Notes under the pieces: generated by a model
Databases searched by the model: none
What the model saw: only the letters and a program-made list of their open reading frames with translations
What the model was told of the DNA's origin: nothing
Shown: positions 24,379 through 44,975 of the stretch, piece after piece
Layout: every line of letters begins with the position of its first letter
Numbering within the stretch: the first letter of the stretch is position 1
NCBI GenBank assembly: GCA_031264245.1
Contig: JAISEG010000002.1
Span: 62,001 to 126,000 of the forward strand
Source: Oscillospiraceae bacterium
Lineage (GTDB): Bacteria; Bacillota; Clostridia; Oscillospirales; JAAYOS01
DNA length: 64,000 nt
Direction: 5' to 3'
Made by a program: the position numbers and the translations under genes

Positions 24379-24441
24379 AAATTGTCAACTCTCAACTCTC
24401 AACTGTCCACTGTCCACTCTCAACTGTCAATTGTCCATTGT
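24379..24441. repeat. Heptanucleotide repeat array A
   Basis: Nine heptamers of the CMAYTST family in a row (CAACTCT, CAACTGT, CCACTGT, CAATTGT, CCATTGT and others), the first with one extra A. The stop codon of the minus-strand membrane-protein gene (24427-24429) lies inside it, so the last codons of that gene (TMDN and stop) are repeat sequence. Confidence 0.85.
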
Positions 24442-26591: not shown

Positions 26592-27176
26592 TCATATTTT
26601 TCTTACCCAGTACAAAAGCGCGAACCGCCGGCCCTCGTTTACAAAGCCGTTTTTTTCAAGCACACGCATAGACGCCTTGTTGTATGGCTGGGTCAGCGCG
26701 CTCACCCTGTCAATGTACGCGTATTGCCGCGTCCCGGCAAATTCCAGCAATCCGCCCAGCGCCTCGGTCATAAGCCCTCTGCCGGAAAACGCGTTTCGCA
26801 CCGAGTACCCGACCTCGGTTTCAGCTCCGGGCAGTATCCCCTTGAAGCCCAGCTCTCCGGCAAGCTCCCCTGTCGAAAGCAGTACAATCTGCCACATTGT
26901 GGAAAACAGCCATTGCTCCGGCCGCTTCAAAATCAGCTCGAGGCGCCTCTCGTAAATCAGCCGCATATCTGCGCCGCCCTTGTCGTACTCTGTAAATTTC
27001 GCTCCGATTTCCGCCGCCGCGCCGGACGGGTCTGTGACCGCGCGCTTCATCTGCTCCGGGGTAAAGGGCGCAAGTCTCAGGCGCCTTGTGGTAATTTCCA
27101 GCACTACAACCTCACCGCCGATATTTTTATATCCAATTGCTGTTTGAACCCCACCGACCCCGGTGAGGTTCATCAT
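26592..27176 (-). CDS. GNAT family N-acetyltransferase (RimJ/RimL type)
   Basis: Acetyl-CoA-dependent acetyltransferase. Family marks include EITTRRLRLAPFTPEQMKRA, GYSVRNAFSGRGLMTEAL (acetyl-CoA loop) and ASMRVLEKNGFVNEGRR. The start is uncertain: the ATG at 27176 gives 194 residues, while a GTG at 27104 preceded by GGTGAGG gives 170 and begins right at the conserved domain. The acceptor is unknown. It lies downstream of sigE on the same strand but is probably separate from the sporulation operon. Confidence 0.8.
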   Translation of the reverse strand: MMNLTGVGGVQTAIGYKNIGGEVVVLEITTRRLRLAPFTPEQMKRAVTDPSGAAAEIGAKFTEYDKGGADMRLIYERRLELILKRPEQWLFSTMWQIVLLSTGELAGELGFKGILPGAETEVGYSVRNAFSGRGLMTEALGGLLEFAGTRQYAYIDRVSALTQPYNKASMRVLEKNGFVNEGRRFALLYWVRKI

Positions 27177-27221
27177 ATATTTTACTAGGCAAATACAAAA
27201 AATGCAAACAATTTTTGCGGT

Positions 27222-27929
27222 TCACATCATTTTTGCTATTTCCTTCTTCAGCCTCAGTATTATCCGCTTTTCAAGCCGTGATATGTAGGACTGGGAAATG
27301 CCCATAATATCCGCGACCTCCTTCTGCGTCTGTTCGTTTCCGTCGTCCAGACCAAAGCGCATGACGATGATGGAGCGCTCCCGCGGTCCCAGCTTACCGA
27401 TGGCTTTTTTCAGCATTTCCTTGTCCACCTCATCCTCAAGCGGACGGATTATCACATCATTTTCGGTGCCGAGCACATCCGAGAGCAGCAGCTCGTTTCC
27501 GTCCCAGTCGGTGTTTAGCGGCTCGTCGATGGACACCTCGCCGCGCTGGTTGGACGTCTTGCGAAGATGCATGAGTATCTCGTTTTCTATACACCGTGAC
27601 GCGTAGGTGGCAAGCTTTATCTTCTTGTCGGGGTCATAGGTGTTTATCGCCTTGATAAGCCCTATCGTACCGATGGAAATAAGGTCCTCGATGTTGATTC
27701 CGGTGTTGTCGAAGCGCTTCGCGATGTACACGACAAGGCGGAGGTTGTGCTCTATGAGCACACGCTTGACATTTTCGTTGTCGTCGTGATAGCGGCTTAT
27801 GAGATACGCTTCCTCCTCGGCCGTCAGGGGTGCGGGCAGGGTGTCGCTGCCTCCGATATACATCACCTTGTCCGGTTTTCTCCGTATCAGCCGTTTAAAT
27901 AACCCCTTCAGCCTGTCAAGCATTTTCAT
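27222..27929 (-). CDS. sigE: Sporulation sigma factor SigE (pro-form)
   Basis: Early mother-cell sigma factor, made as an inactive precursor and cleaved by SpoIIGA. It has an N-terminal amphipathic pro-sequence ([19 protein letters not shown]). The region 2 signature [20 protein letters not shown] is followed by [19 protein letters not shown]. The region 4 helix-turn-helix reads [20 protein letters not shown]. The ATG at 27929 is chosen because AAGGAAGG is 9 nt upstream; the ATG at 27941 touches that site. The length of 235 residues is standard. spoIIGA lies directly upstream, 30 nt away. Confidence 0.96.
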
Positions 27930-27959
27930 CACTGTGCCCATCCTTCCTTATCCTGAAAA

Positions 27960-28826
27960 TTATACGCTGTGCAGCGCGCAGTAGCCCGCTCCCTCCGACA
28001 CGGCGTTCGGCGAAACCGCTATCATTGTCCCGCGTATTTCCTTGCCGTCCGCCCATATCCTTTCCGGCGCAAAGGCGAGCATCATGCCCTCCCCCGCCAC
28101 CGTTCGGTACGGCACTATCCTAAACCTGTCCGCCGCCCCGGCGTCACTCAGCTTTTCAATGGCCCGGGACGGGCTTCGGTAATCCTCCGGCTCGAGCAGG
28201 GTTCTGCACTGGTAGGAAAACAGGCTTTTTACCGCCGCGGTCTCACAGATCATCACCCTGGAATTTGTTATCGGGTCGCGCAGGGTGTTGCCTGTGTCCA
28301 CAAGGGCGGAAAAGGAAACGGTCTTATTGTTCATTTCAACCGTTATCTTTACAATATCGTTTTTCATGGCGTGTGTTCCCCCGCCGGAGAAGAAGGCGGA
28401 GAGCAGTCCGCAGCCGAGCATGGCGGAGAGGATAAGCAGAGGCACCCGCGCCCACATCGGTATCGAAACGCCGCCGATAAAGGTGGCTTCAAACGTCGTA
28501 AGCGCCGCCGTCACCGCCCCCGCAAACAGGCAGGAGACGGCAAAGAATATCACGCACCGCTTTATAAACTGCTGCCTTGTGTCAAATCCGAACGCGATAA
28601 GTATACATATCAGCCCCGCCGCCACAGCCCCGGCCGCCCCCAAAAATTGGAGACCAGGCAGGCAGGCGGCTACCGAGTACAGCGCCCCGAATACGGCGGC
28701 GAGCAGCAGCCTTCTCCGCTTAAACGGCAGCCCGGAGAACCCTGCCGCCGCGGTCAAAAGCAGGTAATCCACCGCCAAATTGACGACAAAAACCACATCA
28801 GCGTATATCACCCTCACCCGCTTCAC
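27960..28826 (-). CDS. spoIIGA: Sigma-E processing peptidase SpoIIGA
   Basis: Membrane aspartic protease that activates pro-SigE after a signal from the forespore. The N-terminal half carries five membrane segments (DVVFVVNLAVDYLLLTAAAG, GAVAAGLICILIAFGF and others). The C-terminal half has the catalytic motif ALVDTGNTLRDPITN. Length is 288 residues from a GTG start. It is co-transcribed with sigE from the unusual promoter at 28859-28892. Confidence 0.95.
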   Translation of the reverse strand: MKRVRVIYADVVFVVNLAVDYLLLTAAAGFSGLPFKRRRLLLAAVFGALYSVAACLPGLQFLGAAGAVAAGLICILIAFGFDTRQQFIKRCVIFFAVSCLFAGAVTAALTTFEATFIGGVSIPMWARVPLLILSAMLGCGLLSAFFSGGGTHAMKNDIVKITVEMNNKTVSFSALVDTGNTLRDPITNSRVMICETAAVKSLFSYQCRTLLEPEDYRSPSRAIEKLSDAGAADRFRIVPYRTVAGEGMMLAFAPERIWADGKEIRGTMIAVSPNAVSEGAGYCALHSV

Positions 28827-28858: not shown

Positions 28859-28893
28859 ATTATATCTGTGCCGGGGCTGTGAAATATGTCAAA
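28859..28893 (-). promoter_or_regulatory. spoIIG promoter with 22-bp spacer and 0A-box-like site
   Basis: On the minus strand: perfect -35 TTGACA (28887-28892) and perfect -10 TATAAT (28859-28864) separated by 22 bp instead of 17. The same unusual spacing is the hallmark of the Spo0A-activated spoIIG promoter in Bacillus subtilis. TGTCAAA (28887-28893, plus strand), one base from the 0A box TGTCGAA, overlaps the -35. Confidence 0.7.
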
Positions 28894-28916
28894 CAAAAGA
28901 ATCAAAGCCTATAAAA

Positions 28917-28947
28917 TTAGACCCGGGACATCCAGTCCCGGGTCTAA
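28917..28947. terminator. Hairpin upstream of the spoIIG promoter
   Basis: Perfect 13-bp stem TTAGACCCGGGAC/GTCCCGGGTCTAA around ATCCA. It lacks a long T tract, so it may insulate the spoIIG promoter or act as a weak terminator of the upstream minus-strand gene. Confidence 0.5.
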
Positions 28948-28974
28948 TACCAATCCCAAATAAGAAGCATACTA

Positions 28975-29020
28975 AAAATGGGACAAAAACCGCATATATC
29001 AAAGCTTTTTGCCCCATTTT
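28975..29020 (-). terminator. Terminator of the aldo/keto reductase gene
   Basis: Arms AAAATGGGACAAAAA (28975-28989) and TTTTTGCCCCATTTT (29006-29020) pair with one mismatch and end in T-rich sequence on the minus strand. Confidence 0.65.
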
Positions 29021-29075
29021 ATAGAATGCTCCTAATTAGTGATTGGTCTAATACTGATTGAGCGCCATGCGCGGC

Positions 29076-29996: not shown

Positions 29997-30053
29997 CCGA
30001 ATTTCTCCTTAATAAACTTATTTCCCCGCGCCGTCAAGGCGCCTAACGTTCCC

Positions 30054-30221
30054 CAACTGTCCACTGTCAACTGGGGTACGGCGGACGCGCAATGCGCGCC
30101 CCTACAAACAATCGTCTCCCCACCCGTTCTCCGTCTCCAACTGTCAATTGTCCACTCTCAACTCTCAACTGTCAACTGACGCGTCCCCAACTGTCAACTG
30201 TCAATTGTCAACTGTCAATTG
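30054..30221. repeat. Heptanucleotide repeat array B, composite with palindromic core
   Basis: Three heptamer blocks (30054-30073, 30138-30177, 30188-30221) separated by a core at about 30069-30137. The core carries CGCGCAATGCGCGCCCC, then CTACAAACAATCGTCTCC. Nearly the same core lies in array F at 59232-59300. The stop of the GGDEF gene (30201-30203) is within the last block; its tail QLTVDN is repeat-encoded. Confidence 0.85.
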
Positions 30222-31442
30222 TCTCTTCCGTTCCATATTTTTCATTTTATTTTCTCTCTTGTGTTCATACATCCGCGAATCCGCAATGCTCAGTATTTCG
30301 CTGGGGGACAGCTTGTTGTCCTTTTTCACATGTACTGTGCCAAAGCTTATGCTGTACGAATACGGCAAGCCCTCGTTTGCCGGAACTTTCCCTATGTTTT
30401 TCGCTGTGTTTTCCATGAGGAGCTCGGCGGAGCGGTGATCCGTATTATTTAAAAGCAGCATAAATTCATCGCCGCCGAGACGCGCCGCTATGCCGTCCCC
30501 GGAGACCGAAGCCAGTTCATATCCCGCACAGATTATGTACTTGTCCCCGGCTTCGTGACCGAAGTTGTCGTTTACATGCTTTAAATTGTCCAAATCCACA
30601 AACACAAGCGTAAATTCCCGGTTTTCCTCCAAAAAGTCGTTGAATGCCTTCATACCTCCGAGACGGTTGTGCAGACCCGTCATGCTGTCGTGATAGGCGT
30701 GAACCTCCAGCTCCCCAACCCTCTTCAGGCTTTCGCTTATGTCGTTTAATACAAAGGCGGCCGCTCTCTTCTCATCCCATTGGATATTGTAGCTGTAGAC
30801 CTCGTAGTAGCGTGAGCCTACGGAAAACTCCTTCCCCGCTTCACCGTTTTCCCCCTCATATTTGAAATCAGTCAGCTTCCTTATAAGCTCGTTCTCAAGC
30901 CGCAGCAGCCGGTCGGCGGCTTTGTTTGAATAGAGGAGGGAAAGGCTTATGCCGTCCGCGACGACCAGCGCCTGAGGAGTGTTTTCTGTGATATTGGTGA
31001 GCAGCTCATTGCTCTGGACCAGAGCCTTGTTCTTTTCTTCGCTGGCGGTTATCTCGTTTTCCAGCTTGGTTCTCCTGAAATCAAGCTGGTCTATCATCGT
31101 GTTAAACGCTTCGGCGAATTCGCCCATGAAGTCTATGCGCTGTGTATAGTCGCCCTTCGCCACCTGCTGGGACTGCCAGGTCATATGCCGCAGGCTTGCC
31201 TGGAGCGATTTCAGCGGAGCCGCAAGCTCATTGTCGGCGGGAGGGAGCGGCGCGCTTAGGTCGCCCTTTGCCAGTGAAAGCAAAAGCGCTCTCTGCTCAT
31301 CAAGACATTTCTTCAAAAATTTGAGACCCTCGCCCAGATTCTGGTATTCCTGCGAAAGCTGGGCGGTATCTAAAACAGCGTCCCGAGGACTGTATATGAT
31401 ATTTTTAAGATATTCAAACAGTATTTCCGGGGTCTTGTCCAT
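30201..31442 (-). CDS. Cytoplasmic diguanylate cyclase with HAMP-like and PAS-like domains
   Basis: A 413-residue protein expected to make cyclic di-GMP. Residues about 55-130 hold two HAMP-like repeats (LLSLAKGDLSAPLPP, QQVAKGDYTQRIDFMGEF) without membrane segments. A coiled coil follows (ENEITASEEKNKALVQSNEL), then a PAS-like segment (ITENTPQALVVADG) and the GGDEF domain (YHDSMTGLHNRLGG, then ARLGGDEFMLLL). The active-site GGDEF is intact. The RxxD inhibitory site five residues upstream is absent, so product inhibition may be missing. The C-terminal QLTVDN and stop come from array B. The V4R gene upstream is 69 nt away and is probably its sensor partner. Confidence 0.88.
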   Translation of the reverse strand: MDKTPEILFEYLKNIIYSPRDAVLDTAQLSQEYQNLGEGLKFLKKCLDEQRALLLSLAKGDLSAPLPPADNELAAPLKSLQASLRHMTWQSQQVAKGDYTQRIDFMGEFAEAFNTMIDQLDFRRTKLENEITASEEKNKALVQSNELLTNITENTPQALVVADGISLSLLYSNKAADRLLRLENELIRKLTDFKYEGENGEAGKEFSVGSRYYEVYSYNIQWDEKRAAAFVLNDISESLKRVGELEVHAYHDSMTGLHNRLGGMKAFNDFLEENREFTLVFVDLDNLKHVNDNFGHEAGDKYIICAGYELASVSGDGIAARLGGDEFMLLLNNTDHRSAELLMENTAKNIGKVPANEGLPYSYSISFGTVHVKKDNKLSPSEILSIADSRMYEHKRENKMKNMERKRQLTVDN

Positions 31443-44156: not shown

Positions 44157-44975
44157 TTACAAAGCTCTCGCGTATTCGCCGTACTGCATTTCCTGCTCTC
44201 TATAAAGCGCTTCCTTAGCCAGAAACGCTATCACTTCCTTGTTGCGCGGTTTCCTGCTGCTGTCCAGTCTGTTATGCCCAAAATACCTGCCCCAGCTCTC
44301 GATATCTCCGTTTTCCCACGCGTCCTCTATAGCCACCCGTATCGACCGCTCCACCCTTTTCCAGGTCGACCGGGAAAGCAACGCTATCTCCGGGTACAGC
44401 TCCTTCGTCAGAGCTCCCATAATAGACGGGTTTTCATTTATCAGCCTCACCGCGATTTTCAGGTATCCATATCCCCTAAAGTTCATACGTATACCAATAT
44501 CCTTCAGCCTTCTATCCAGCTCGGTGCCATTATCAATGTTGCTTGTATTTATCTCCGAAGGCGGGCTTTCATCCGCTCTGCGGTTGTCGATATCTATAAT
44601 TATTTCTTCAAGGTAGCACGGTTCAAAGGGTTTTGTCAGGAAATATTTGATATCAAACTTGTTTGCCTCCTCCACCGCCTGGTTGTTGCACAGCTTGGTC
44701 AGGATGACTATTTCAGCGGAGTTCCCCTCCTGTTTAAGCCTTTTCATAACCTCAAAGCCATAAATTTTTTTAAGCATTATATCCATTATGATAATTTCGG
44801 GCTCCAGCATTTCCGCCAGCTCCAAAAGTTCGTTGCCATCCTTAGCAATACCTAAAATATTTATCCTTCTGTTCAAGCTTAATCTTTCCGCCATAAGCAA
44901 ACACGACTCTGTATCACTGCTGTCGGCGAGCAATATATTTATTTGACCCCGATTACTACATTTTCCTTCTGCCAC
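44157..44975 (-). CDS. Spo0A-family response regulator, divergent
   Basis: A 272-residue two-domain regulator. The receiver (residues 12-130) has the phosphorylation site D65 (IIIMDIML), T93 and K115. One residue of the acidic metal pocket is replaced (LLADSS, where Spo0A has Asp-Asp). The C-terminal half matches the Spo0A effector domain: LTKELYPEIALLSRSTWKRV, then ERSIRVAIEDAWENGDIESW. It could be the sole Spo0A of this lineage or a paralogue; it is not next to spoIVB or recN, the usual spo0A neighbours. Two perfect 0A boxes upstream point to self-regulation. Confidence 0.8.
   Translation of the reverse strand: MAEGKCSNRGQINILLADSSDTESCLLMAERLSLNRRINILGIAKDGNELLELAEMLEPEIIIMDIMLKKIYGFEVMKRLKQEGNSAEIVILTKLCNNQAVEEANKFDIKYFLTKPFEPCYLEEIIIDIDNRRADESPPSEINTSNIDNGTELDRRLKDIGIRMNFRGYGYLKIAVRLINENPSIMGALTKELYPEIALLSRSTWKRVERSIRVAIEDAWENGDIESWGRYFGHNRLDSSRKPRNKEVIAFLAKEALYREQEMQYGEYARAL

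Follow-up and report, generated by a model that had tools for sequence, protein, structure and literature searches.

Among the spore formers sampled, the promoter of spoIIGA-sigE, the genes with which mother-cell sporulation begins, has a long spacer of fixed length which is strikingly conserved and for which 21 bp is the norm. In the window, i.e., the whole stretch of 64,000 nucleotides from an Oscillospiraceae bacterium that was analysed here, a -35-like box stands 22 bp from a consensus -10 element directly upstream of spoIIGA-sigE. This is a known architecture, as expected in front of spoIIGA, and the useful part is the 21-bp norm. The long spacer is conserved and its final base pair is labile. 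The best explanation is that the window shares a homologous layout with other spore formers and that its exact 22 bp departs by one base from the usual 21 bp. We hold with considerable confidence that sigma-A reads this promoter and that Spo0A~P activates it from a box which overlaps the -35 region, with region 4 of sigma probably shifted downstream by some 4 bp; the dependence on Spo0A~P, the displacement and the start site are what we infer.

Promoters used by sigma-A are mostly spaced by 17 or 18 bp, and an unusually long gap between the two boxes is typical of promoters activated by the sporulation master regulator. The spoIIG promoter of Bacillus subtilis depends on sigma-A and on activation by Spo0A~P, and has a TTGACA-like box lying on a 0A box and a 22-bp spacer; studies in this organism attribute to Spo0A a repositioning of the polymerase at spoIIG. 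In vitro work cited in an excerpt of PMC12090719 places the action of Spo0A~P at spoIIG after the formation of the closed complex.

The promoter in the window

The promoter lies on the minus strand. Its -10 element, TATAAT (28859–28864), is separated by a spacer of 22 nt (28865–28886) from the 0A-like box TTTGACA (28887–28893), which overlaps the -35-like hexamer TTGACA (28892–28887) and which, read as TGTCAAA on the plus strand, differs from the 0A box TGTCGAA (TTCGACA on the minus strand) by one mismatch. An earlier note on this DNA had described perfect TTGACA and TATAAT boxes 22 bp apart upstream of spoIIGA-sigE, with a near-0A box on the -35; the boxes and their coordinates are confirmed. 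Spacer positions 3–5 are TTT, a short T-tract in the same register as that of relatives. Transcription is predicted, from the position of the -10 element, to start between 28848 and 28855 on the same strand.

The arrangement is rare in its surroundings. TTGACA-N22-TATAAT has its sole zero-mismatch match in the window at this site, while allowing up to 2 mismatches gives 10 matches versus 2.9 in shuffled sequences. When the 1,200,579-base assembly (9 contigs, 47 % complete) was searched for the same boxes at N21 or N22, this site only was found, and the reversed pattern, used as a control with N21–22 across all 1,200,579 bases, gave 0 matches. A sigma-70 scan with spacers of 16–18 nt called no promoter at the site upstream of spoIIGA. 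By a promoter profile that was built without it, the window scored 21.3 and ranked 71st of 222.

As to further binding sites, the tandem 0A half-site 10 bp upstream of the box is absent from the window, the heptamer there being GATTCTT, in which T replaces C. Other 0A-like heptamers near the box are weak, with 2 mismatches: one of them, the weak candidate TTTCACA, lies 9 bp downstream of the box (28878–28884, minus strand), and the rest are found further upstream.

Spacer length among spore formers

Regions upstream of spoIIGA were gathered from the family, order, class and phylum of the window, to which were added 80 named loci found via SigE, largely annotated Oscillospiraceae, and two Bacilli taken from plasmid records. 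Extra regions from the matches listed numbered 160 (80 from the order and 40 each from the class and the phylum). Since the sample consists of the best ~150 matches plus 30 loci per genome search, weakly scoring SpoIIGA proteins are under-represented and the sample is biased accordingly. The window itself (L001) and the loci L038 and L341 were removed before counting. Three of 339 loci had no usable SpoIIGA start (L084, L090 and L096), two of the other 336 had less than 150 nt upstream, and 25 of the 334 left were near-copies, which brings the set to 309 non-redundant regions. All were anchored on the first position of the SpoIIGA profile, which replaced guessed start codons. The spacing test is independent of TTGACA in that it records the position of GAC relative to TATA(A/C)T, and the shuffles with which it is compared preserve dinucleotides.

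By this test GAC is found 21 bp from TATA(A/C)T in 187 of the 309 regions and 22 bp from it in 35, where shuffling leads to an expectation of 0.4 and 0.9, respectively. The neighbouring and the ordinary spacings are almost empty (20 bp in 0, 23 bp in 1 and 17 bp in 3 regions). An alignment of spoIIGA upstream regions from relatives had been proposed as a check on the promoter, and conservation is indeed present, GAC being at 21 or 22 bp in 222 of 309. Broken down by group, the regions at 21 bp, at 22 bp and unclassified number 2/0/4 in the family (window aside), 53/9/35 in the order, 45/16/8 among the named loci derived from SigE, 45/1/21 in the class, 41/7/19 in the phylum and 1/1/0 in the Bacilli, the window itself counting as 22 bp. 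Of the 87 regions missed by the strict rule, a profile made from the other regions scores 34 beyond the 5 % shuffle threshold, and 30 of these have their boxes at 21 bp (24) or 22 bp (6); after this profile step 57 of the 309 regions are assigned to neither spacing.

The remainder of the surveyed loci (1.02 Mb) served as a control, with a rule requiring an exact TATAAT and at most one mismatch to TTGACA. Such pairs are spaced by 17 bp in 22 instances, by 18 bp in 11 and by 16 bp in 1, and some long pairs occur too (21 bp ten times, 22 bp seven times). Without the spoIIE loci (175 loci, 0.85 Mb) the counts at 17, 18, 16, 21 and 22 bp become 17, 10, 1, 6 and 6. Applied to the 336 spoIIGA upstream regions, near-copies included, the same rule finds 120 pairs at 21 bp, 16 at 22 bp and 1 at 17 bp.

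It is well established that spoIIE is a second sigma-A gene activated by Spo0A, and a table in PMC3416734 gives it as such. Among 30 spoIIE upstream regions from the order of the window, 12 are spaced by 21 bp and 2 by 22 bp, and none of the 30 by 16–18 bp. The spoIIE promoters of this order are thus like the promoter of the window in having a GAC box 21 or 22 bp from TATA(A/C)T; unlike in spoIIGA promoters, a T-tract is not evident in the spacers of the sequences displayed.

These counts bear on the idea that the window simply holds an ordinary weak sigma-A promoter, without an activator, whose boxes are far apart by chance. Such an account can point to two perfect hexamers and to the divergence of the Spo0A-like protein encoded by the assembly, but the spacing recurs at hundreds of homologous positions, is nearly absent from shuffles and is found at spoIIE as well, which makes it scarcely credible. 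For the promoter family as a whole, a chance pattern is refuted by the recurrence when compared with shuffles. As regards the clostridial spacer rule, no statement of it was found in the literature searched, the search having covered a limited part of what is in print.

Recurrence of the 22-bp spacer

The earlier note had gone further and claimed that the atypical layout of spoIIG, down to its 22 bp, was kept across a large distance. A long spacer with the box on the -35 is indeed conserved far beyond chance, is common to spoIIE and is present in two Bacilli; the keeping of 22 bp, in contrast, is not supported, 21 bp being the norm (187 versus 35 of 309).

It is accordingly very unlikely that the exact 22-bp spacer was inherited from an ancestor shared with B. 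subtilis, with an activation mechanism that requires 22 bp. What speaks for such descent is that the spoIIGA promoter of Bacillus velezensis, the closest sequence compared, reads TTGACA-N22-TATACT, that 35 of 309 regions have the same spacing and that the label is clustered on the SpoIIGA tree. This tree (FastTree, 125 full-length proteins) has long branches and only its change count was used: it requires a minimum of 11 changes of the 21/22 label, versus 15–20 (mean 18.9) when labels are shuffled on the same tree. As many as 10 of these changes are forced by well-supported branches, however, and on a tree of 222 SpoIIGA N-termini the label changes 21 times. Moreover, 21 bp is five times commoner than 22 bp, and the spoIIGA promoter of Paenibacillus cellulosilyticus, TAGACA-N21-TATACT, has the shorter spacer.

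The closest relatives point the same way. Those of the same family with a clear box, L002 and L003, are both at 21 bp, and they are also the rows of the tree nearest to the window by path. Two further members of the family, L004 and L007, carry a TTCGTGC box at 21 bp, although the 21-bp pair of L004 is outscored by one of 26 bp that lies far upstream. In L005, L006, L008 and L009, all from one other genus of the family, the box is degenerate (TTCGCTC) and fits best at 22 bp, with profile scores of 2.3–2.7.

Given a norm of 21 bp, 21 bp in Paenibacillus and in kin of the same family, and at least 11 label changes, the 22 bp that the window shares with Bacillus are best read, as far as sequence comparison goes, as a recurrent one-base slip, probably independent of that at B. 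subtilis spoIIG. The 22-bp form is a minority variant which has arisen and been lost many times. The window promoter is like B. subtilis spoIIG in the gene that it serves, in the TTGACA-like box on a 0A box and in the 22-bp spacer. It differs in its perfect TATAAT, in having one clear 0A-like box and in the absence of a tandem half-site 10 bp upstream, a place where B. velezensis, unlike the window, has CTCAACA.

Anatomy of the promoter family and proposed mechanism

Counted from the box, spacer positions 3–5 are T in 64, 80 and 76 % of the 199 loci at 21 bp and in 61, 79 and 61 % of the 38 loci at 22 bp, near-copies being included in both sets. The T-tract is thus equidistant from the box in the two classes and is therefore shifted by one base relative to the -10, which in the 38 loci is TATAAT (26) or TATACT (12). 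Five bases upstream of the box, C is present in 159 of 222 promoters (133 of 187 at 21 bp and 26 of 35 at 22 bp). This is the place of the C in a tandem 0A box 10 bp upstream and, as only 159 of the 222 have it, many relatives are without the tandem half-site, like the window. On the other side, 6 of the 35 promoters at 22 bp (L051, L069, L072, L184, L187 and L211) carry another GAC at precisely 10 bp downstream, versus 1 of the 187 at 21 bp (Fisher p = 6e-5). Some of the 22-bp promoters may belong to a sub-type that has such a downstream box; as many offsets were examined, this is a lead only.

In the mechanism that we propose, the polymerase with the housekeeping sigma-A would read the spoIIGA-sigE promoter, and phosphorylated Spo0A would activate it. 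A box 22 bp from the -10 would be unusable by sigma-A as an ordinary -35. Spo0A would occupy TTTGACA, overlapping the -35-like hexamer, and once it is bound sigma region 4 would probably sit about 4 bp downstream, at the normal 17–18 bp from the -10. The distribution of spacings, in which 21 bp is commoner than 22 bp and 20 bp is absent, is like the 17/18 pattern moved by 4 and, together with a T-tract fixed to the box, suggests that Spo0A and region 4 form one unit, leaving the usual one-base slack to the interval from region 4 to the -10. The survey fits the repositioning of the polymerase by Spo0A, short of proof.

A stricter version can be put forward tentatively, with more doubt than conviction. 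At the two Spo0A-activated sigma-A promoters of the sampled spore formers, the distance from box to -10 would be only 21 or 22 bp, which is the 17/18 rule plus exactly 4 bp. The reason would be that Spo0A and region 4 form a rigid unit on the box plus T-tract, all the slack being confined to the interval from region 4 to the -10. The window would then represent the longer setting.

Alternatively, region 4 could contact TTGACA itself at 21–22 bp, with Spo0A~P bending or twisting the DNA into line and the T-tract helping. The hexamer is often the sigma-A consensus, since the long-spaced box has at most one mismatch to TTGACA in 143 of the 222 classified promoters (40 perfect, 103 with one). No good hexamer is available nearer by, the best one at 16–18 bp having at least 3 mismatches in 221 of the 222, and the T-tract keeps the register of the box, all of which would suit a distortion of the DNA. 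However, the third base of the box is often C, as in the 0A consensus, and not the T of a -35 (CGACA in 40 and TGACA in 95 of the 199 loci at 21 bp), and spacings of 21 and 22 bp are tolerated but 20 and 23 bp are not, much like the 17/18 tolerance shifted by 4. We regard the distortion as rather unlikely.

The survey also leads to a sharp prediction of where region 4 is located during activation by Spo0A. What had been an oddity of a single model organism becomes a quantitative rule, with 21 or 22 bp but not 20 or 23 bp, which can be used for locating the Spo0A-activated sporulation core in uncultured genomes.

Spo0A and the assembly

The sole Spo0A_C protein found in the assembly is a divergent Spo0A-like response regulator, recognised by a profile match (44157–44975, minus strand). 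It scores 144 bits versus a TIGR02875 cut-off of 200 and is 29–33 % identical to five Spo0A proteins of other genomes, but keeps the core RVER-IR of the recognition helix. The neighbouring gene, from reading its sequence, we take to be prolyl-tRNA synthetase-like. Spo0A above the cut-off was found in 26 of the 30 genomes searched, the window's own being one of the 30, and in 8 of 9 other family members. In the 47 %-complete assembly of the window, the search for a canonical Spo0A returned this divergent protein only. As the assembly is about half complete, canonical Spo0A may be missing merely because of a gap, and the Spo0A-like protein is possibly a paralogue or a fast-evolving Spo0A.

Several observations count against the proposed explanation, namely the mismatch of the window's box to the 0A consensus, the lack of a tandem half-site and the divergence of the Spo0A-like protein, to which may be added the degenerate boxes in L005, L006, L008 and L009 and the occurrence of some 21/22-bp pairs in the controls. 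Experimental data come from Clostridioides difficile. According to the excerpt of PMC3789822, RNA-seq mapped a promoter with the sigma-A boxes GTGACA and TATAAT upstream of spoIIGA, and sigE is down 240-fold in a spo0A mutant; that of PMC3485338 reports low-affinity binding of the Spo0A DNA-binding domain (Spo0A-DBD) to DNA upstream of spoIIAA, spoIIE and spoIIGA. The window promoter precedes the same gene and has sigma-A boxes like this promoter, which in C. difficile is Spo0A-dependent, and differs from the part described in the first base of the hexamer (GTGACA there, TTGACA here).

The operon and its surroundings

The product of spoIIGA (27960–28826, minus strand), the pro-sigma-E processing peptidase, matches PF03419 with an E value of 6e-62 and scores 152.9 bits versus TIGR02854, under the cut-off of 209.55; the start is uncertain (GTG at 28826, 28817 or 28811). 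It is followed on the same strand by sigE (27222–27941), whose sporulation sigma factor exceeds the curated SigE cut-offs. An aldo/keto reductase gene lies upstream of the spoIIGA promoter, also on this strand. A 14-bp hairpin with TTTT after it adjoins the promoter on its upstream side and is a probable intrinsic terminator (28905–28965, minus strand; -26.8 kcal/mol, z -4.2), and a second long hairpin stands farther towards the aldo/keto reductase gene (28960–29035, minus strand; -31.2 kcal/mol, z -7.0). Because these two strong hairpins, the nearer one with TTTT, separate the operon from the upstream gene, spoIIGA-sigE very probably has its own promoter.

Directly after sigE (26592–27222 of the window) sigG is absent, unlike in many spore formers; a SigG-like gene is found on another contig (G000:C3:59612-60370) and scores 432.8 bits, below the cut-off of 457. 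The window contains short intergenic repeats of TGTCAACTGTCAATTGTC-like units at two or more sites (24383–24438 and 30050–30223). Among the relatives, SpoIIGA matches with one internal stop codon (TAG in four, TAA in one) are seen in the genomes G050, G079, G091, G103 and G116, which belong to one genus code (f3, g39) and whose loci include L031 and L019.
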